64,000 nucleotides of DNA from Photorhabdus heterorhabditis (GTDB taxonomy: Bacteria > Pseudomonadota > Gammaproteobacteria > Enterobacterales > Enterobacteriaceae), in assembly GCF_018448905.1 (NCBI RefSeq), contig NZ_RCWA01000015.1, positions 45,068-109,067 of the forward strand. Direction: 5' to 3'. A program made the translations under genes and the position numbers. Below the pieces are notes generated by a model. That model searched no databases. It saw only the letters and a program-made list of their open reading frames with translations, and had not been told where the DNA came from. Positions 45,819-54,997 of this stretch are shown in pieces. The first letter of the stretch is position 1; each line of letters begins with the position of its first letter.

Positions 45819-46970
45819 CTAAGCAGATGGTTGAACATCAGACCACACGGAAATAACCGCGACGGCTCTGGCTAGCCCTCCGGCGCCGTCAGTCTTCAAC
45901 AGAACCGGTACCACAGACACTTGCGTTGATGCCGTATAGTTATCGTTCCCTTGTTTAAGGTATCTTGAGTTCTCTCCTTCACCTCGGTGGCCGGTACTGA
46001 GTGATAAGGGTTTGTTGGCCGCATCAGTAAACATGAAGGCGACATCCTCTATTGAAGAGGCTAGGGCATTCGGTTTCCCCGGCACAAATGGCCCATCGAT
46101 CCGGTAGAGTAAGTGTGAATTTTGAAATACATCATCATCGCCGGAACAGGTGCTGCTTATCCCTATTTGTCTCGCTGATTCCAGTGTATCTCCCACCTGT
46201 TTACCTGCTCTTTTCACTGTTCCCCAATCCACCGATGACGGGGTAAGGACAACGGCACAGGTGGACGGTTTTTTAACGGATGAAAGGATGACTGTGGTCC
46301 ACAGGGGGTTCAGCATGCCGTTAGAACCCGATATTGCCGCTGGAACCCAACTGATCGAGCCTACTGACAAATGACTTCCCCCCGGTTTCGCATTGAAATT
46401 GCCGTCACTGTCCGGGTAAATTGCCCCGGTTACCGAGCGGACACTGATATCAACCAGACCGTTGGCATCCGGGACGCAGGGAATGTTAACGCTGGTATTC
46501 CCTTTGACCAGACTGGTTGATTGATAGGTATTGGGTGAACCATGCGTCTGGCAAGAGAGTGAAGATTGCCCAATATCAACCATAAAGTCACCAGCCTTTC
46601 CTACCCGGACGCTACTCGGTGACGACGAAGAGATCGATGAGCCTGTTCCCGATCCCACGGTGTAAGTCATCAGCTGCGTCCCGGCGGGGACGCGGCAGGT
46701 TGTCGACCAATCAAGAGGGCCACTGGTGGTATAACCCACTATTTCATCCCGTGAATAATCACGCTTATCTTTGTTGTTCGGCATCATGGCATAGCCGGTT
46801 ACGGTAACATTGCTAACTTTATTCACCAGTTCAGTCTCGCAGTTCTGATAAATTTCTGCCGCTTGGAGTGGTAATGCGGTCAATAAAAAGAACAGTGACG
46901 CCCCCAGCCCCATGATGGTTGGGATGGGGTTTGCTGCATGACTGCCCCACAAACGTTCAGTGTCTAACAT
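45819..46970 (-). CDS. Fimbrial tip adhesin (two-domain)
   Basis: 383 residues. A signal peptide (GLGASLFFLLTALPLQAAEI, cleaved near 38) is preceded by an unusually long hydrophilic head; a start at the second Met (about residue 20) is possible. The N-terminal region (to about 245) has several cysteines and no match I recognise, as expected for a receptor-binding domain. The C-terminal part (STCAVVLTPSSVDWGTVKRAGKQVGD...ISSTCSG...VSVVPVLL) has the Cys spacing and beta pattern of a pilin domain. It is the last gene of the operon after the usher, the usual place for the adhesin. Receptor unknown. Confidence 0.75.
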   Translation of the reverse strand: MLDTERLWGSHAANPIPTIMGLGASLFFLLTALPLQAAEIYQNCETELVNKVSNVTVTGYAMMPNNKDKRDYSRDEIVGYTTSGPLDWSTTCRVPAGTQLMTYTVGSGTGSSISSSSPSSVRVGKAGDFMVDIGQSSLSCQTHGSPNTYQSTSLVKGNTSVNIPCVPDANGLVDISVRSVTGAIYPDSDGNFNAKPGGSHLSVGSISWVPAAISGSNGMLNPLWTTVILSSVKKPSTCAVVLTPSSVDWGTVKRAGKQVGDTLESARQIGISSTCSGDDDVFQNSHLLYRIDGPFVPGKPNALASSIEDVAFMFTDAANKPLSLSTGHRGEGENSRYLKQGNDNYTASTQVSVVPVLLKTDGAGGLARAVAVISVWSDVQPSA

Positions 46971-47117: not shown

Positions 47118-49760
47118 TTATAGACACACGGCATCGGCCTGCACCAGTTTCCCTAGGGTATCGGACGACACCTGATAACGGGTGGTACATTGTTGATCTG
47201 CCCCGTTTCCCCATTTAACTTTCACATGACCGGCGGACGGCATGCCGCTCAGATAAACTCGGCCGTTATCGCCTACAATGCCGTTGCCGACTTGGGTTGC
47301 GTTTCCTTCCAGCGTTGCGGTGGCGCCAAAGGGCACGGGTTTGCCATGATGTGTCAGGGTCAGTAGCAACTGGCTGCCCAGCCGAACCTGATAATTGACC
47401 AGCGTCACTGCACCTTTGGTCGGGTAAACGTTGCGGCTAGTCTGGTCAATATCGACCCCTTCCGGCAGGGTGGACGGATCTAGGTTGATGGTGTTTTTGT
47501 GGTAGACCGATCCGCCTGGCAATACGGCGTAGCCACGCCAGTCGGTCTGTACGTTGCCGTTGCTAACCGTCACCCCTTTCGCTCCGGGCGCGCGGACTAA
47601 TACCGCAGTATCTCCCAGCGAACGTGACAGCGTTATCCCGTAAGGATGGATTAGAAGGGCGCCGGACATGCCATAGGTGACGTGCCGGCTGTCTGCGTTG
47701 TCATTGTAACCCAGATTAACGCTCCCCTGACTGCCCTGATAACCCAGCGACAGGGTCCGGCTGTTTTGCTGGCCGTTGTGCCTCCAGCCTTGCTGGAGGT
47801 TATAACTCAGGCGGTTATCCCATAACATGCCACTGATGCCGGTCTGTTGAGAGAGGTTACCCTGCGAGTCGCGCGAGGCCGTATAGCGGGTGTAAACGCC
47901 CCGTAACGCCGACGATGATCCAAAGAGACTCAGCGGGATCTGCATATTGAATGATACCTGACGGTTTTCCGGCCAGTGGCCTTCGCCCTTTATACGAGAA
48001 ATGTTATAACTCAGGTTATAGCTGATCCCCATCAGCATCGCGTTGTAACCCAGACTTAGGTTGTTGTCGGTACGGCCATTCCAATAATTATTACGTGTCC
48101 CGGAGGCGTAAAGACTGCCCCAACGTCCCAGTGTCTGACGCAGGTTCACCTGCCAGGTGTTCTGACGCCGGTCAAGCGCCCACGGCACCTGATATTCATT
48201 CAGGCTGTACCCCATGCTGTTAGCATCACTGAAACTGTAGTAATGCTGAGTGGAATAGCGGTAGGCGGCCAGATCAATGCCGGTACCGGTACTGAGCAAG
48301 TTCTTGGAGTATTTCACGCGATAAGATTGGCCGAATTGCCCGCTTTCTTCCTGATCCTTGCGCCCCTGCAACTGTGCACGGGCCAGCGTCACATCCGCAG
48401 ACAGCGCGCCGAATGCACCCAACGAAACCCCCGAACCTAATACACCCGATTGGTAGTTGCCGGCGAACAGTCCCCCGCCGTACAGGGTGATACTGTTGGG
48501 TAAACCATAGACCAATGTGCCCATAGCAAAGACCGGGGAACGGCTACCATCGGTAAGGTTGCCGCCATGATATTGACCGGTCGTCAATTCATATTTAATG
48601 CCTCCGGGACGTTGCATCACCGGCAGGGACGATGAGGCTATTGTAGAGACGCGGGTGCGGCCATTTTCCTCTTTGATAGTCACCGTCAGGTCGCCAGCAC
48701 TCCCTGTGGTATAGAGGTCGGTGAAACGAAACGGCCCCGGCGCCACTGTGGTTTGATATACGATATTGCCATTCTGGGATACGGTCACCTGCGCATTGGA
48801 GTTTGCCACACCGGTTATCTCCGGGGCAAAACCGCGCTGACTGTCGGGTAACATGGCCTCCTCAGAGGCCAGTTTCATGCCACGAAATGGGATACTGTCA
48901 AAAATGTCGCCGCCGGTATAAGTTTCACCCGCCGTGAACTCACTGCGCAGTGCTGGTATGTCACGTTGCAGGTAGGTATTACTCACCTGCCATTGGGTCT
49001 GCGCGGATGGAGAAAAACGGGAGGCGCCCTCGTTGCGCTGACGATTGTAACTGTAAGTTTGCGTGCTGCGCAGACGCCACGGCCCCAGATTCAATCCGTT
49101 ACGAAAAGAGGCAAACAGATTACGAGAACGTGATCCTCCCCAGTTTCTCTGACCGTCATAACGCCCTTCCGAGCCGTTGACGGTGTAATTCATCAAAAAG
49201 GCCGGTATCCCGTTATCCCACAGTGACGGGTCAACCATCCCGGAATAATGGGGCTGCATGGCGACCTGTGGGACACTGAGATCCAGGCGCAAACGGGCGA
49301 AATCCAGTGTTGAGCGGGCGTGCGGGATCTGTTTCGTCAGATCCGTGATGAGGCTGTCGTCCGCTTTACCCTGAAAAGCCGGTAATCTGCGGGTATTGAC
49401 CCCATATTCTTCCAGTTGTGCGACGGTTAATACCGGTTGGAGATGGCCGTTAACCAGCCTAAATTCAATCTCTCGGTTGTCAACCTTATTCTGGTTCATG
49501 TAGACATCGACCAGATAGCGTCCCGGCGCGACATACCCCGCGTTTTCATACGCCGAGAGATCAACATGACTGTGTTCACCGTTAGCGCCCATCAGGAATG
49601 CGGGATTAAAGTATTCCCGCGCCGAAGCGGGCAAGGCCGTTGCCGTCAGTGAACACAGCAGACATATGTATACCGGACGGGGCCGGAAACCGCCCGGTTG
49701 ACCGGGCGCACGTTGGTTACCCGTCCGCAGTGCAGACGGAAATAAAGTGTTTATTGCCAT
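47118..49760 (-). CDS. Fimbrial outer membrane usher (PapC/FimD family)
   Basis: 880 residues. A long signal region (to about 47) is followed by the N-terminal periplasmic domain (REYFNPAFLMGANGEHSHVDLSAYENAGYVAPGRYLVDVYMN). Then come the 24-strand barrel with plug (MLPDSQRGFAPEITGVANSNAQVTVSQNGNIVYQTTVAPGPFRFTDLY is the family signature) and the C-terminal domains with a Cys pair (CTTRYQ...ADAVCL). It secretes and assembles the subunits from this operon. The start ATG has GAGATGAG upstream. The DNA is clearly GC-richer than the flanking housekeeping genes. Confidence 0.95.
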   Translation of the reverse strand: MAINTLFPSALRTGNQRAPGQPGGFRPRPVYICLLCSLTATALPASAREYFNPAFLMGANGEHSHVDLSAYENAGYVAPGRYLVDVYMNQNKVDNREIEFRLVNGHLQPVLTVAQLEEYGVNTRRLPAFQGKADDSLITDLTKQIPHARSTLDFARLRLDLSVPQVAMQPHYSGMVDPSLWDNGIPAFLMNYTVNGSEGRYDGQRNWGGSRSRNLFASFRNGLNLGPWRLRSTQTYSYNRQRNEGASRFSPSAQTQWQVSNTYLQRDIPALRSEFTAGETYTGGDIFDSIPFRGMKLASEEAMLPDSQRGFAPEITGVANSNAQVTVSQNGNIVYQTTVAPGPFRFTDLYTTGSAGDLTVTIKEENGRTRVSTIASSSLPVMQRPGGIKYELTTGQYHGGNLTDGSRSPVFAMGTLVYGLPNSITLYGGGLFAGNYQSGVLGSGVSLGAFGALSADVTLARAQLQGRKDQEESGQFGQSYRVKYSKNLLSTGTGIDLAAYRYSTQHYYSFSDANSMGYSLNEYQVPWALDRRQNTWQVNLRQTLGRWGSLYASGTRNNYWNGRTDNNLSLGYNAMLMGISYNLSYNISRIKGEGHWPENRQVSFNMQIPLSLFGSSSALRGVYTRYTASRDSQGNLSQQTGISGMLWDNRLSYNLQQGWRHNGQQNSRTLSLGYQGSQGSVNLGYNDNADSRHVTYGMSGALLIHPYGITLSRSLGDTAVLVRAPGAKGVTVSNGNVQTDWRGYAVLPGGSVYHKNTINLDPSTLPEGVDIDQTSRNVYPTKGAVTLVNYQVRLGSQLLLTLTHHGKPVPFGATATLEGNATQVGNGIVGDNGRVYLSGMPSAGHVKVKWGNGADQQCTTRYQVSSDTLGKLVQADAVCL

Positions 49761-49842: not shown

Positions 49843-50625
49843 TTATAACGGGGTGTGGCGATCCTGACTGTCGCCGGGAAAACGCCAGACCAAGAGGTCC
49901 GGCGTCCCGGCGGTAAACGAATAGGTTTGTATGCCTTTCGGGGGTACCATCGTTTGGCGTGTGTGGTCATCCGCATGCTGTGTTCCTACTTTCAGGACAG
50001 AGAAGGTCAGAAAATAAGGTGTAGGATTTTCTACCCGCAACTGCGTTCCCTGAAGGGAAAATTTCACCTGTTTAGCCACCGTGGCGTTATCCCGAGCGGG
50101 GACTCCCTGAGGACGATAAAACAGCCGAATATTCATCTGTAAGGCGACTTGCACTTGCGGGTTCTTGCCAGTTTGGCGCTCAGGTGTGCTAGTGTCCGGT
50201 ACGGCAACGCCGGGAATAGCCCGCAGCGAGACCACAAAGGCCGATTCCCGATCCGGCGGTAACTGCCCCCCAAGCTGGCGAATACGGAACAAAAATTTCC
50301 CGCCAGCTTCGACCCGTTTTAACGGCGGCAGGACAACAAAAGGAGGAGCTAGCCCGGTTTGGGTGTCAAAGCGCCCGGTATCGGGGTCCATCGGGCTGAC
50401 AAAACCCTGTACCAGATAGCCCTGCGCCGTATGATTGGTCATACTAAGGGTCACTCCGCCCGGGCTGTCTTTGGCGACATACGATAACTGCATCGGGGAG
50501 AACGATAACCCCTGATTCTCCGCCGCCTGCGCTTTTAATAGGCCGCCTAGCAGCAGGGCAAGACAGAAGGGGTAAATCATTGATCCACCGTGTTCTCGCC
50601 CATTCCCGTTACTGACTCTCTTCAC
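49843..50625 (-). CDS. Divergent periplasmic fimbrial chaperone-like protein
   Basis: 260 residues with a signal peptide (FCLALLLGGLLKAQAAE) and the two-domain PapD fold pattern: LSFSPMQLSYVAKDSPGGVTLSMTNHT...PPFVVLPPLKRVEAGGKFLFRIRQL...LPPDRESAFVVSLRAIPG...IRLFYRPQGVP. The two subunit-anchoring residues of PapD are changed: Arg8 aligns with Gln (SPMQLSY) and Lys112 with Arg (NIRLFYRP). The start is a GTG at 50625; an ATG 15 codons later is also possible. It may be specialised for one subunit such as the adhesin, or have an accessory role like PapJ; this is inference. Confidence 0.8.
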   Translation of the reverse strand: MKRVSNGNGREHGGSMIYPFCLALLLGGLLKAQAAENQGLSFSPMQLSYVAKDSPGGVTLSMTNHTAQGYLVQGFVSPMDPDTGRFDTQTGLAPPFVVLPPLKRVEAGGKFLFRIRQLGGQLPPDRESAFVVSLRAIPGVAVPDTSTPERQTGKNPQVQVALQMNIRLFYRPQGVPARDNATVAKQVKFSLQGTQLRVENPTPYFLTFSVLKVGTQHADDHTRQTMVPPKGIQTYSFTAGTPDLLVWRFPGDSQDRHTPL

Positions 50626-50655: not shown

Positions 50656-51390
50656 TTAACTCACCACTTTGGCGGTAAATAGGTTTGAAGCCCCGCCGTA
50701 ATCATTAATCATCGACCAGCTCACCGATTTTTTGCCTTTCTGTCCGACATAGGTCACACAATCCTGCGGCGCTATCATGGAGGGATAGCGATTCAGATCG
50801 AGCGCCTGTCCGTCCAGCGTGAGGCTGTCCAGCGACAGGAAATACGGCGTGGGATTGCACGCCTTAATGCCATCCGGTTGCGACTGAAAGCGGAGCTGTC
50901 CGTACGCCTCTTCCGGCAACATCGGCAGGCCATGCGGTCGCCAGAAAAACTTAATTCGCATTCCCACGCTCATCGACGCCTGATCCCGAATGTGCTCATT
51001 CGCCATCTGATGGGAGGTGGGGATAGTATTTATCTGTACATACCCCAGCGATTCCCGATCCACCGGAAAGGGCGACAGATTAAAAGTCGGCAAAATACGC
51101 AGGCTGTTCTGACTATTGGCTTCCAGCCTGAACAGCGGCGGTGTCACCACAAACGCTGGTGCGGTTTTCTCCTGATTTTCAGTGATTCTCACCTGAACCA
51201 GCCACGCTTGAGGCGTGGTATTGACTACCGTTAGTGTCTGCGCCCGCTCCCCTTGGGTAAAAATCACCCGGGTTTTATTCAGGCTGATACCGGCTGCCTG
51301 ACAGGGTACTGTGCCGGTCATGCTCAGCCCCAGCCAGAACAACAGTGACATCAGTCTGTATCGCGTTGTGCGTACCCGACCTGTTTCCAC
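50656..51390 (-). CDS. Periplasmic fimbrial chaperone
   Basis: 244 residues, signal peptide (LLFWLGLSMTGTVPCQAAG) and PapD-type motifs: ISLNKTRVIFTQGERAQTLTVVNTT (Arg8 equivalent present), FPVDRESLGYVQINTIP and MRIKFFWRPHGLP (Lys112 equivalent present). The GTG start at 51390 follows CAGGAGG. It is the second of three chaperone genes in the operon, directly after the minor subunit. Confidence 0.92.
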   Translation of the reverse strand: METGRVRTTRYRLMSLLFWLGLSMTGTVPCQAAGISLNKTRVIFTQGERAQTLTVVNTTPQAWLVQVRITENQEKTAPAFVVTPPLFRLEANSQNSLRILPTFNLSPFPVDRESLGYVQINTIPTSHQMANEHIRDQASMSVGMRIKFFWRPHGLPMLPEEAYGQLRFQSQPDGIKACNPTPYFLSLDSLTLDGQALDLNRYPSMIAPQDCVTYVGQKGKKSVSWSMINDYGGASNLFTAKVVS

Positions 51391-51423: not shown

Positions 51424-51996
51424 TCAGTGATAGTTAAATTGAAATTGAATATGCGCGGTCAGTTCACCGGGGGTGGGTACAGCCGTGCCGGATTCATGTC
51501 GCATATCCATCTGGAAGGTGATTTGACTGTCTTTAACAGCGTTACCCGGTGACGCTAAATCCACATAATCGCCATTTTTCAGGTAGCTCCCCAGCTCGCC
51601 TCCCGGTGATTGATAGCGCAGGCCAAATCCCACATTTCCCGCCACAGTGGAAGCCTTATCCCGAAATAACGTCGGGTGGTTTTCCGGCGTGGGGCCGGCT
51701 ATTTTAATGGCCGGGGTACGGCCCGCTCTGGCTGATCCCGCACAGCCTGACAACGCCAGCGTAATAGGCTTGTTGTCTGCCGCTTCGATATGTTCCGCAC
51801 TACGCTGTACTTCATTAAGCGGTATGGATGAAAACTCGACATGGGATGTCTGTACATTGAGTTCACAGGTTGGCTGTTCCAGCGTTAATGCCAGCGTCAG
51901 TTCTGCCGTGTTTGAACTTGCTCCTCCGGGCAGGGAGGCAGTACAAAGCAGACTGGCCAGTGTTGTCCGTCTGATAAGAGACCACGATTTTCGCAT
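51424..51996 (-). CDS. Minor fimbrial subunit
   Basis: 190 residues, signal peptide (ASLLCTASLPGGASS) and pilin pattern: Cys in LEQPTCELNVQTSHVEFSSIPLNEV paired with LSGCAGSA, and the C-terminal donor-strand-accepting end ELTAHIQFQFNYH with a penultimate aromatic residue. Its ATG overlaps the stop of the first chaperone (TAATG). It could be an adaptor or terminator subunit. Confidence 0.85.
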   Translation of the reverse strand: MRKSWSLIRRTTLASLLCTASLPGGASSNTAELTLALTLEQPTCELNVQTSHVEFSSIPLNEVQRSAEHIEAADNKPITLALSGCAGSARAGRTPAIKIAGPTPENHPTLFRDKASTVAGNVGFGLRYQSPGGELGSYLKNGDYVDLASPGNAVKDSQITFQMDMRHESGTAVPTPGELTAHIQFQFNYH

Positions 51997-52715
51997 TACG
52001 GTATCTCCCCTTGATAGGATGATTTTCCGCCGAGGTCATTAATCACCGTCCAGCTGACTTTGGCCGGGTAATGTATCCCTTTGAGGGAGAAAAACAGAAC
52101 CGAGAACGGAGAGACCATGTCCTCTTTCTGCTGCTGCGTCATCAGTTCCTGTCCGCCCACTTTCAGGGAGGTGAAGGTAATGTAATAAGGTGACGGATTC
52201 GTGACCGTTATCCCTGAGACTGTCGGTTTGAAGCGTAGTGAACCAAATCCTTGCTCTGGCAAAACCGGCAACCCTGACGGGCGATACATCAGCTTAATTG
52301 TGTTGGCCGTAGCAATTTGTACGCCCCCGGTGACCTGCTTACCGGAGGGATTGTCAGGTTTGAGGCTTAACGGGATGGCCTGCGCGGTAAACCAGAATAG
52401 GGATTCCCGGTCAGCTGGCAGGGCCTGGCCTGTTTTGATAATGCGAACCTGATTCTGGCCGCCGGGTTCCATGAGAAACAGGGGCGGCGTTACGAGAAAT
52501 GGAGCGGCTTTATCCCCCTTAGGGGTGGTACTGACTGTCATCTGCATCAGATAAACGGCCTCTTGACTGCTATTGCGTACCGAGGTTGCCGCCGCATGGC
52601 TGTCAGCCGGGTAGATAATGCGGGTAGTATCAATACTCACTCCCCCAGCCCCTGTGGCGGTGACCGATGAGCCTAGCAGACCGGCCACTATTATCGTTGT
52701 CATCAATCTTTTCAC
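51996..52715 (-). CDS. Periplasmic fimbrial chaperone
   Basis: 239 residues, signal peptide (IIVAGLLGSSVTATGAGG) and canonical PapD motifs: VSIDTTRIIYPADSHAAATSVRN (Arg8 equivalent), LPADRESLFWFTAQAIP and NTIKLMYRPSGLPVL (Lys112 equivalent). The start is a GTG with AGGTGA upstream. It lies directly after the major subunit gene, following an intercistronic hairpin. Confidence 0.93.
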   Translation of the reverse strand: MKRLMTTIIVAGLLGSSVTATGAGGVSIDTTRIIYPADSHAAATSVRNSSQEAVYLMQMTVSTTPKGDKAAPFLVTPPLFLMEPGGQNQVRIIKTGQALPADRESLFWFTAQAIPLSLKPDNPSGKQVTGGVQIATANTIKLMYRPSGLPVLPEQGFGSLRFKPTVSGITVTNPSPYYITFTSLKVGGQELMTQQQKEDMVSPFSVLFFSLKGIHYPAKVSWTVINDLGGKSSYQGEIP

Positions 52716-52756
52716 TGAGTCACCTGAAAATATCTGTTTTGGTATTGCGTAGGCAA

Positions 52757-52780
52757 GAATTGGACCTCCCTGTCCAATTC
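52757..52780 (-). promoter_or_regulatory. Intercistronic hairpin after the major subunit gene
   Basis: GAATTGGAC, CTCCCT, GTCCAATTC is a perfect 9-bp stem between the major subunit and chaperone genes, without a T run. In pap-type operons such stems stabilise the major-subunit message and lower downstream expression; the same is likely here. Confidence 0.6.
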
Positions 52781-52831
52781 CACTGCTATGTGTTCCTGGT
52801 GCCTAACGGCGTTGATTAGCTATAAATTTGA

Positions 52832-53398
52832 TTATCGAGTAACAAGTTGAAAAGTCAGTGGTGCACTGACACTTGTCCCCGCTGTAACAGCCGAAGGATT
52901 CTTGGCAACCAGCCCCACGCTAAAGGTTTTGGTAGCAGCTGTACTTAAAGTATTTTGGTCAGCAAAGTTAATCTTACTGTTGTTTGCCAGAAGCACTGTT
53001 TTACTCTTTTCCACCAGACCTACTGCCAGGCTACCGACAGCGGCACTAGAATCACCAAAATAACCATCCCCATCTAAGGTCTGTGTTCCTGTAATTTTCA
53101 AATCAACGTTTCGCTTCATCTTGTTGTCTGCTTGGTTGATTTCAGCATCACAGCCTGTTAGTGAAATAGTGAAATCCTGAGGCTTGACTAAAGTGTTTGT
53201 GGCAATAAAGTCGGCTTTTGCAGCAGTGCCTAGGTTGATGTCGGTCTTGTCAATGTTGAGTGCACAAGTTGGCGCTGCTACAGAACCTGACACGTTCACA
53301 TTCGCACTTTTACCAATATCAGCAGCATGTGCCATTCCCATCCCCATACTCAGGAGTACTGAGGCTAATACGCTGGTTTTCAAAATTTGCTTTTTCAT
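52832..53398 (-). CDS. Major fimbrial subunit
   Basis: 188 residues. Signal peptide MKKQILKTSVLASVLLSMGMGMAHAA, then a pilin domain with a Cys pair (VAAPTCALNIDKTDINLG ... SLTGCDAEI) and the C-terminal beta strand TSVSAPLTFQLVTR. First gene of the operon, with AAGGAATAG as ribosome binding site. Unlike the rest of the operon its base composition is close to that of the chromosome. The left edge of the probable invertible element lies 100 bases upstream. Confidence 0.92.
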   Translation of the reverse strand: MKKQILKTSVLASVLLSMGMGMAHAADIGKSANVNVSGSVAAPTCALNIDKTDINLGTAAKADFIATNTLVKPQDFTISLTGCDAEINQADNKMKRNVDLKITGTQTLDGDGYFGDSSAAVGSLAVGLVEKSKTVLLANNSKINFADQNTLSTAATKTFSVGLVAKNPSAVTAGTSVSAPLTFQLVTR

Positions 53399-53497
53399 TT
53401 CATCTATTCCTTATCTATATCTACTTAATACATTTTGTCTAAAACAACACCATGACAGATTAAACAGCTGGGCCGCCAAGGCGGTGCGTTTACTGGT

Positions 53498-53813
53498 CAT
53501 TTAGAGTTATTTTGTTCAGTTGTTAACTTAATGAAATATATCAATAAAAATATTAACCAAATGAAACCACTTCCGGCTTATACCATTTGGTTTGAGGAAT
53601 TTTGCCTTTAGGATGAGAAAATGAATATCAAATCGCTCAATAAATGATCTCTTAACAAGCCGTAATATCCGTAATGCAAGAAATAATTTCTATTTGAAAT
53701 CAAAAAATTAAGTAATTTTTTACAAAAAAACACAAAAAATATCTTTTAAGTGATGAAATTTTCCGTATACCGCCCCGGCGGTTGAAAATAACCGAACAAA
53801 ATAACTCTAAATG
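53498..53813. promoter_or_regulatory. Probable invertible element (fimbrial phase switch)
   Basis: Two perfect 20-bp inverted repeats, CATTTAGAGTTATTTTGTTC at 53498-53517 and its complement at 53794-53813, enclose 276 bp of AT-rich DNA with no gene. The total of 316 bp and the position upstream of a major fimbrial subunit are like fimS of E. coli and the mrp switch of Proteus. Inside, AACCAAATG/CATTTGGTT (53555-53592) is a possible regulator site. The best promoter-like pair I found (TTTACA 53719, TATCTT 53740, 15-base spacer) points right, away from the operon, so this copy may be in the OFF state; that part is weak. No recombinase gene is nearby. Confidence 0.82.
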
Positions 53814-54418
53814 TTCGGTTTTTTACCTTACATCAAAAACTGACTTCATCGAAAACAACCTCGCCGCTTTAGACAGTACTTTCCCTACATTTATGTCTCT
53901 CTGGTATTGTCCAAAAACCAAGATCTCTGAACGTTCCAAAAAAATGTATTAATCACGCTTATAAATTTTTCGGTATTTAGGGGGGATTGACTAAGCCTGA
54001 TATTAGGTTTGTTTTAAGATCATCCTCCATGCACTCGGTATTGAAATTGACTGGCGTTGTTCAGATACGCTGCGCTTTGAAAAGGTGCCCGGCGTAAACG
54101 GCACTGTGTCTGTTATTTAATCTTCACAACAAACTATCGCTGTAAGCTATGTGATGCGGGATGATAAATAATCACTAGCGGCATTTACTGCTGTGGCGGA
54201 TAAGCCGCTTTGGGAGGGAAGGTCTGCATACTCAGGTAAATGATTACTTTTTCCTTTTTATCAATAAATTAATGACAGTTTTCAATGATTATCACTATGA
54301 TTTATCTATTATGTTGAATCGTGTTCTGTCTATTTAGTGATAAAAAATTATTGTCATACGATAACTTTTAAAGTAATTTAACGACAGTTTAGTTGAGCAT
54401 GTAATGGAATGACATAAG
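53814..54418. other. Gene-free region right of the switch, with possible gene remnants
   Basis: About 600 bases with no complete gene. Two stretches on the plus strand read like protein fragments ending in stops: a frame ending ...KTDFIENNLAALDSTFPTFMSLWYCPKTKISERSKKMY near 53950, and KIILHALGIEIDWRCSDTLRFEKVPGVNGTVSVI ending near 54120. I recognise neither. The rest is AT-rich and unremarkable. Confidence 0.35.
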
Positions 54419-54997
54419 ATGTGTGATAAACAGGAGTTTGTAACTAATCCCAGGATCAGGCTACTCAGCTTTCTGGCTATTATTATTGCTTCCGTTATGG
54501 CAATTGCTGATATGGGGTTCCATATCGTTTCTTGGTCGTTATGGCATGATACCACTCGTCAGGCCGTCCTTCAGGCATATAGTGATCTTATGCCCGCATT
54601 GATTGAAAAGGGATTTAAGCAGTCTTTATTAAGTCAGATACTTTACATATCGCTGGATACGATACCACGAATCATATCAACCGCTTCTTATCTATTAATC
54701 GGAATTCTATTTTTCCGGTTTGCTAAAGGTGAAATATGGAGTGATCGTAATATCTTTGGTTCATTTATTATTGGTTTCCTGATGATTCTAGAACAACTTC
54801 TTTATCCAGTGATTGATACATTACAGGGAATGGCCTTATCTATAGATTTAGGAAAAGGACAACGGGTATTTAGTTTCTCGCTTGGTGTTAATTCAGAATC
54901 TCTGTTTATTATTATGTTTGGTGTATTCCTCCTGATATTTAGCTTAATTATGCGTGAGTCTAAGAAGATAAGCGATGAGCAACGTTATTTTATCTGA
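54419..54997 (+). CDS. DUF2975-type membrane protein
   Basis: 192 residues with four predicted membrane spans (about 16-36, 75-95, 112-132 and 160-178). The assignment to DUF2975 rests on topology and on the partner gene eight bases downstream, which is a YozG-type regulator; these two families are commonly paired. Function is unknown. It may be the membrane sensor of a small two-gene regulatory unit. Confidence 0.6.
   Translation: MCDKQEFVTNPRIRLLSFLAIIIASVMAIADMGFHIVSWSLWHDTTRQAVLQAYSDLMPALIEKGFKQSLLSQILYISLDTIPRIISTASYLLIGILFFRFAKGEIWSDRNIFGSFIIGFLMILEQLLYPVIDTLQGMALSIDLGKGQRVFSFSLGVNSESLFIIMFGVFLLIFSLIMRESKKISDEQRYFI

Follow-up and report, generated by a model that had tools for sequence, protein, structure and literature searches.

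A candidate invertible promoter with likeness to the mad switch upstream of a fimbrial operon in Photorhabdus heterorhabditis

The 316-bp element preceding a seven-gene fimbrial operon in P. heterorhabditis is best explained as an invertible FimB/MrpI-type promoter, paralogous to the mad switch but diverged from it, that would be served by a recombinase acting in trans and was assembled in the state equivalent to OFF in mad. We put the probability of this reading at about 0.7; inversion, promoter, terminator action, enzyme and state are inferred from the sequence. In the proposed mechanism a tyrosine recombinase encoded elsewhere, either the mad-linked enzyme or a 77%-identical orphan, would bind two inverted half-sites in each arm, and strand exchange inside the 17-bp sites would flip the segment. 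In the orientation assembled here, a promoter near the right arm would face away from the operon, and a hairpin with a T-run just outside that arm would end its transcript at once (OFF). After inversion the same promoter would adjoin the left arm and read via the conserved leader into the operon (ON).

Architecture of the element and its operon

The sequence CATTTAGAGTTATTTTGTTC at 53498-53517 of the window (the whole 64-kb stretch of DNA that was analysed) is the exact reverse complement of 53794-53813, as the first-pass annotation had described it, and the repeat reaches 27 bp when two mismatches are admitted (93%; Table 1). The 20-bp pair is the longest perfect inverted repeat of the window (loop of at least 50, span of at most 1000) and exceeds all shuffles, where the longest such repeat was at most 17 bp for the whole window (dinucleotide shuffles, n = 60) and at most 15 bp for 52700-54500 (n = 500). 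The interior between the perfect arms, 276 bp with a G+C content of 29%, contains no ORF of at least 80 aa, in agreement with the earlier description of a gene-free interior, and an Rfam scan of 53000-54500 gave no match. From the start of the left arm to the ATG of the major subunit gene on the minus strand we measured 99 bp, previously given as about 100 bp. The layout of a fimbrial switch, a short gene-free segment before the major subunit gene flanked by inverted repeats, is thus present.

In the 226-contig draft of its own genome the arm sequence occurs only at these two sites with up to three mismatches allowed. A MITE (small non-autonomous transposon), or a repeat retained merely as a terminator hairpin, would likewise be short, AT-rich and gene-free with terminal inverted repeats, and the right arm does lie within a terminator-like hairpin. 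Nevertheless, we regard such an origin as most implausible, since the element is single-copy in its genome, stands before this operon family or its remnant at all ten loci found, shows no target-site duplication beside the arms and has a left arm without the outer half of such a stem.

The operon reads leftward and encodes, by Pfam and NCBIfam assignment, a major subunit, a chaperone, a minor subunit, two further chaperones and an usher, followed by a last gene. The product of this last gene had no Pfam or NCBIfam match and no meaningful match among solved structures (best E-value 0.54); its position suggests that it is probably the tip adhesin. The operon is placed between genes that we take, by recognising their proteins, to be nadC-ampE on one side and, on the other, a small membrane-protein gene, two small genes and then presumably pdhR-aceE. 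The pdhR-aceE side is common to seven other genomes (L156, L158-L162, L054), and the ampE-nadC side was reached in just two of those seven stretches. As a separate observation, the major subunit has 33-64% identity across five intact operons and no match in a sixth (orthologues in L154, L157, L159-L162), whereas the rest of the operon is steadier in the same orthologues (chaperones about 79-94%, usher 90-95%). The major subunit gene looks as if it had been exchanged or were under diversifying selection.

Table 1. Features of the element and of the fimbrial operon, in window coordinates.
Feature	Position	Strand	Basis
Last gene of the operon, probable tip adhesin	45819..46970	-	position (putative)
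Outer-membrane usher	47118..49760	-	family match
Third periplasmic chaperone	49843..50625	-	family match
Second periplasmic chaperone	50656..51390	-	family match
Minor fimbrial subunit	51424..51996	-	family match
Periplasmic chaperone	51996..52715	-	family match
Major fimbrial subunit (Fimbrial, PF00419)	52832..53398	-	Pfam match
Conserved 5' leader between element and major subunit	53399..53497	-	alignment
Left arm (gene side), perfect over its first 20 bp, with predicted 17-bp recombination site at 53498-53514	53498..53524	+	repeat, site model, conservation
Element interior, 276 bp, gene-free	53518..53793		ORF list, alignment
IHF-like sequence AATCAAAAAATTA	53698..53710	+	alignment
Block similar to the mad switch at its gene-distal end, state relative to the gene as in mad (least similar of the ten loci)	53718..53784		mad profile, 9 of 1000 shuffles
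Candidate -10 (TATACC) with weak -35, reading away from the operon as assembled	53766..53771	+	recurrence in loci (putative)
Right arm (gene-distal side), perfect over its last 20 bp, with predicted 17-bp recombination site at 53797-53813	53787..53813	-	repeat, site model, conservation
Hairpin AACCGAACA...TGTTCGGTT, its loop holding the right arm, followed by a T-run; would probably terminate rightward (OFF-state) transcription	53790..53824	+	folding, alignment

Predicted recombination sites, conservation and recombinases

To score the arms we built a symmetric model of 7-base half-sites from nine fimbrial switches (mad, mrf-like, E. coli fimS and six more), with the tested element excluded. 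The two arms rank 3rd and 4th among the 63,984 17-mers of the window, their score was reached 4 times when an arm was dinucleotide-shuffled 20,000 times and 11 times in as many plain shuffles, and the match begins at the very first base of the repeat. The score, 10.6, is lower than that of any site of the nine reference switches under leave-one-out scoring (11.9-20.0). We chose six of these nine by eye, for a visible CA...TG layout, from 28 recombinase loci of other genera; among the other 22 loci, three were alike and omitted (two near-duplicates, one weak) and 19 had no repeat of that layout. This choice favours the half-site model, and the shuffle test concerns the arms, not the choice. Read from outside inward the arm is CATTTAGAGTTATTTTG, against CAnTTAGGACCATTTTG in mad; reading in the opposite direction gives CAGTTTGGTGCATTTTG for the mrf-like arm, and the E. 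coli K-12 fimS sites CAATTGGGGCCAAACTG and CATTTGGGGCCATTTTG fit the same layout of two half-sites. Over 13 genomes the pattern CANTTNGNNNNATTTTG was found at 12-22 places per genome, versus 3-8 for the reversed pattern, among the matches listed, which include mad pairs and pairs of this element. For ipuS of E. coli CFT073, considered as a held-out control, the position presumed for it led to a stretch without a recombinase gene in its table and was left unused. Our analysis supports the fit of the arms to the half-site pattern of FimB/MrpI-type recombination sites, and we treat them as predicted sites.

Alternatively, the arms could be paired binding sites of a regulator acting by looping or co-operative repression. 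The fixed orientation, the constant spacing of 315-316 bp and the IHF-like sequence between the arms would suit such an arrangement; we consider it very unlikely, as the recombinase half-site model fits the arms at the first base of the repeat and the arms share their layout with the mad arms at the outer end.

Searching 59 genomes, we obtained nine full copies of the element in seven genomes, every one Photorhabdus, and a search of 13 Photorhabdus genomes returned the same nine. One more, in P. akhurstii (L054), came from a pattern scan of named genomes, for a total of ten loci in eight genomes. The six named element-bearing stretches are all Photorhabdus, with strains of P. akhurstii, P. noenieputensis, P. 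caribbeanensis and P. namnaonensis among the carriers; over the locus L054 and G008 share about 95% identity and may be close relatives. Beyond Photorhabdus, eight genomes gave short matches (23-59 bases), which we discarded as AT-rich chance. Over the arms the element spans 315-316 bp at all ten loci. In the ten-locus alignment 19 of 20 columns are invariant in each arm (95%), compared with 167 of 276 in the interior (61%), 70 of 97 in the leader and 50 of 177 in the right flank past the hairpin. The difference between arms and interior (Fisher p = 4e-6) comes from related loci on one tree and does not amount to ten independent trials. Across the region, conservation in 20-base windows peaks at the arms plus one to three adjoining bases.

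The element precedes one group of seven-gene chaperone-usher operons, intact at seven of the ten loci and decayed at three. It is present before all seven operons whose ushers are listed at 90% identity or more, and the partner arm is absent in all seven sister operons, with ushers listed at 82-86% (14 full-length ushers from 9 of 13 genomes). The sister operons (L024:1616-1633 and six like loci) carry a left arm one base short and a common upstream region of roughly 250-330 bases with no partner arm. In G008 a stretch resembling this upstream region (L154:12691-12780, E = 1.3e-9) sits just past the window-type switch on its gene-distal side, a placement suggestive of insertion of the switch-bearing operon at this point.

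The decayed operons lie at the aceE locus in G008 (L156, G008:C1:4280000-4296000), G010 (L158, G010:C18) and P. akhurstii (L054). The decay is alike in all three, the genomes are related (94-97% DNA identity), and the arms are still perfect; hence conservation of the arms need not mean control of the operon behind them. An intact operon copy is also present at another site in G008 and in G010; the G008 copy lies behind the mrf-like operon, roughly 9 kb from a recombinase gene. There, in a tandem cluster (L154 and L155, G008:C1:884000-916000), a recombinase gene with the mrf-like switch and operon is followed by the window-type switch and operon and then by a switch-less sister operon.

No tyrosine recombinase gene (PF00589) was found on the 109-kb contig (C15) that carries the element; neither this absence nor the outward terminator had featured in the first-pass annotation. 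Elsewhere in the genome there are three FimB-type recombinase genes, one beside the mad-like switch, one beside the mrf-like switch and one orphan; both of those scanned exceeded the NCBIfam cut-offs for tyrosine-type DNA invertases. The orphan (L037:1486-2106, on C51) is 77% identical to the mad-linked enzyme and has orthologues in 12 other genomes, that is, in 13 of 13 Photorhabdus genomes; within 1.5 kb of it in P. heterorhabditis we found no fimbrial gene and no inverted repeat of switch size. Co-occurrence is uninformative here, because the orphan and mad-type enzymes are both present in all 13 genomes, with or without the element. Linkage to a serine invertase (Hin/Gin) was not seen either, the two PF00239 matches in the genome falling on C26 and C19 and none on C15. 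For E. coli, passages of PMC6458436 and PMC6083910 document recombinases that act on switches to which they are not linked.

Orientation, candidate promoter and assembled state

Orientation was read from two marks: the ACTRGT-flanked arm leads inward to a TTAACT end and the ACCGAA-flanked arm to a TTCAACC-like end. All ten copies of the element have the same orientation relative to the gene. As controls in the same 13 genomes, 12 of 12 comparable mad copies were collinear, G003 having no matching interior (its mad locus at G003:C5:236498-236784 lacks a matching switch interior), and the mrf-like switch was mixed, 3 genomes showing one orientation and 10 genomes plus four further paralogous loci the other (3 versus 14 of 17; L094-L123). 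The mixed mrf-like and one-sided mad results imply that assemblies can show inversion, but that a switch kept OFF in culture need not do so. Inversion of mad itself was reportedly described earlier, by Somvanshi in 2012, in work that PMC5903667 and PMC5333078 cite. According to a passage of PMC5333078, mad is OFF in P-form cells and its ON form appears in symbiosis only; a long-read comparison of P. luminescens TT01 clones described there showed no major rearrangement and no mad inversion, in a passage that does not name the present locus. The first-pass annotation had named the absence of the flipped form from related strains as part of what would refute its proposal. In these assemblies the flipped form is absent, and the result is not decisive, since mad is likewise uniform.

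The uniform orientation would also be expected of a locked switch, formerly invertible and fixed in one state since no recombinase serves it. Such locking would further agree with the missing linked recombinase, with arm scores under those of all reference sites, with sister operons that retain just a left arm, one base short, and with the decay of the operon behind the element at the aceE locus in three genomes. We nevertheless hold it to be rather unlikely: both arms are nearly unchanged in eight genomes while the interior drifts, and mad is equally one-sided.

The invertible-promoter reading draws further on the interior. The locus that we call mad was so assigned, in place of a named record, by its position beside recG, its recombinase and its size, and the present element, which lies between nadC-ampE and pdhR-aceE and not upstream of madA near recG, is therefore called mad-like, not mad. 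When interiors were compared with the gene on the same side (120 pairs), the mean z was 3.02 in the same state (73% above 2) versus 0.31 in the opposite state (4%). A mad profile matched all ten interiors on the same-state strand, each match being reached by at most 9 of 1000 shuffles, and on the opposite-state strand none of the ten did better than shuffles. The similar stretch comprises about 70 bp just inside the gene-distal arm, and the matches start 3-4 bases inside the interior used in eight of ten loci, at 11 bases in one and elsewhere in one. The copy of the window is the weakest of the ten, at 1.0 bit and with 9 of 1000 shuffles reaching its score. In a search of a database of about 276 kb, the mad profile attained an E-value of 0.022 at best, three other loci of this element came first, and the window's own copy was absent from the matches up to E = 5; in the reciprocal search with the profile of this element, unrelated stretches came ahead of mad, whose E-values were 1.3 or higher. 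As the answer to a targeted question the likeness to mad is fair; as the outcome of a free search it is weak. Our confidence in an invertible promoter was slightly lowered because of the weak mad likeness of the window's own copy and the third decayed operon.

Two further likenesses were discarded. The interior of the mrf-like switch is not alike, its scores being reached by 81 and 192 of 300 shuffles. The upstream region of the sister operons had appeared similar to the inverted element (mean z 1.66 versus 0.10, 70 pairs; strong in one of four loci), which, had it held, would have been a hint of a past ON orientation; it was withdrawn after a profile search found no likeness in either orientation.

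A consensus promoter scan of 53380-54450 gave two sites, both outside the element and fewer than the shuffle mean of 5.2. Separate scoring with -35 and -10 weights yielded only weak sites inside the element. Among these an outward-reading TATACT, with a poor -35, is one of the top four candidates in eight of ten loci; the hexamer is TATACC in this genome and TATACT in the nine others, and its distance to the right arm's outer end is about 48 bases. The IHF-like sequence AATCAAAAAATTA is found at the same offset in all ten loci, five times perfect and five times with one mismatch. Just outside the gene-distal arm, AACCGAACA, 13 bases and TGTTCGGTT followed by a T-run fold with -10.4 kcal/mol, a value reached by 0.1% of 1000 shuffles. 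The consensus scan had found no terminator in 53380-54450, its loop limit of 8 excluding the 13-base loop. Eight of ten loci keep the stem intact and the other two carry a one-base change; the T-run is present in all ten, and with the element turned the hairpin still forms with a G-U pair (-9.5 for that stretch). This structure would probably stop the rightward transcription of the OFF state.

The element might also be invertible with the assembled state being ON and the promoter directed leftward. A leftward TATATT does recur as a candidate: in six of ten loci it ranks among the four best, 43 bases in from the left arm's outer end. We find this assignment quite unlikely: the outward TATACT is among the top four in eight of ten loci, the outward terminator suits an OFF-state design, and the likeness of the interiors gives the same state as mad, which is OFF in cultured P-form cells according to the passage of PMC5333078. 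Overall, the invertible promoter proposed at first pass finds partial backing, in arms that fit the site pattern and are kept in ten loci and in an interior end that resembles mad, while a flipped copy is wanting (ten of ten the same way) and the promoter consensus is weak.

Significance and comparison with known switches

Photorhabdus alternates between insect pathogen and nematode partner, and inversion of mad is the known switch. If our reading is true, the genus would possess a second mad-type switch without a recombinase of its own, and adhesins would be phase-varied as a network with the enzyme at a distance. A testable consequence is the number of promoters that flip when Photorhabdus changes partner. 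Such action at a distance has been reported for the Fim recombinases of uropathogenic E. coli in the relevant passages of PMC6458436 and PMC6083910. More speculatively, and less likely than not, the published "single promoter inversion" between pathogenic and mutualistic forms would not be single: one recombinase, mad-linked or its orphan paralogue, might flip at least two mad-type switches, so that a second fimbria would be ON with mad, or competing with it, in the nematode, and the different GAC and AGT centres would let one enzyme serve both without cross-joining. Furthermore, the half-site layout in nine switches bears on how these enzymes recognise unlike-looking repeats, a question called open in a passage of PMC6458436. 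Among the papers listed in our literature searches we found no report of the present switch.

Among the known systems, E. coli fimS (FimB/FimE) is similar in length (314 bp according to a passage of PMC5903667, versus 316 here), in its two inverted half-sites about a 3-base centre and in its position before the major subunit gene. In contrast to the present element, it is adjoined by fimB and fimE, and its repeats have 9 bp (as stated in part of PMC6083910) against 20 perfect here. The mrf-like switch of Photorhabdus (319 bp) has the same half-site layout, and its arm read the other way has ATTTTGTTTGGTT where the arm here has ATTTTGTTCGGTT; its site faces the opposite way, an MrpI-type recombinase gene is adjacent, both orientations occur among genomes and its interior is unlike the one here. 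The mad switch of Photorhabdus is close in size (323-328 bp), and its arms and those described here have CAnTTAG(4 bases)ATTTTG in common from the outer end inward; both elements lie upstream of a fimbrial gene and each is found in one orientation in assemblies. They differ in the site centre (AGT here, GAC in mad), in the operon and the locus (ampE-pdhR-aceE here), in the recombinase gene that adjoins mad and is missing beside this element, with no PF00589 match on its contig, and in what lies outside the gene-distal arm, a terminator-like hairpin here and the 3' end of the recombinase gene in mad.
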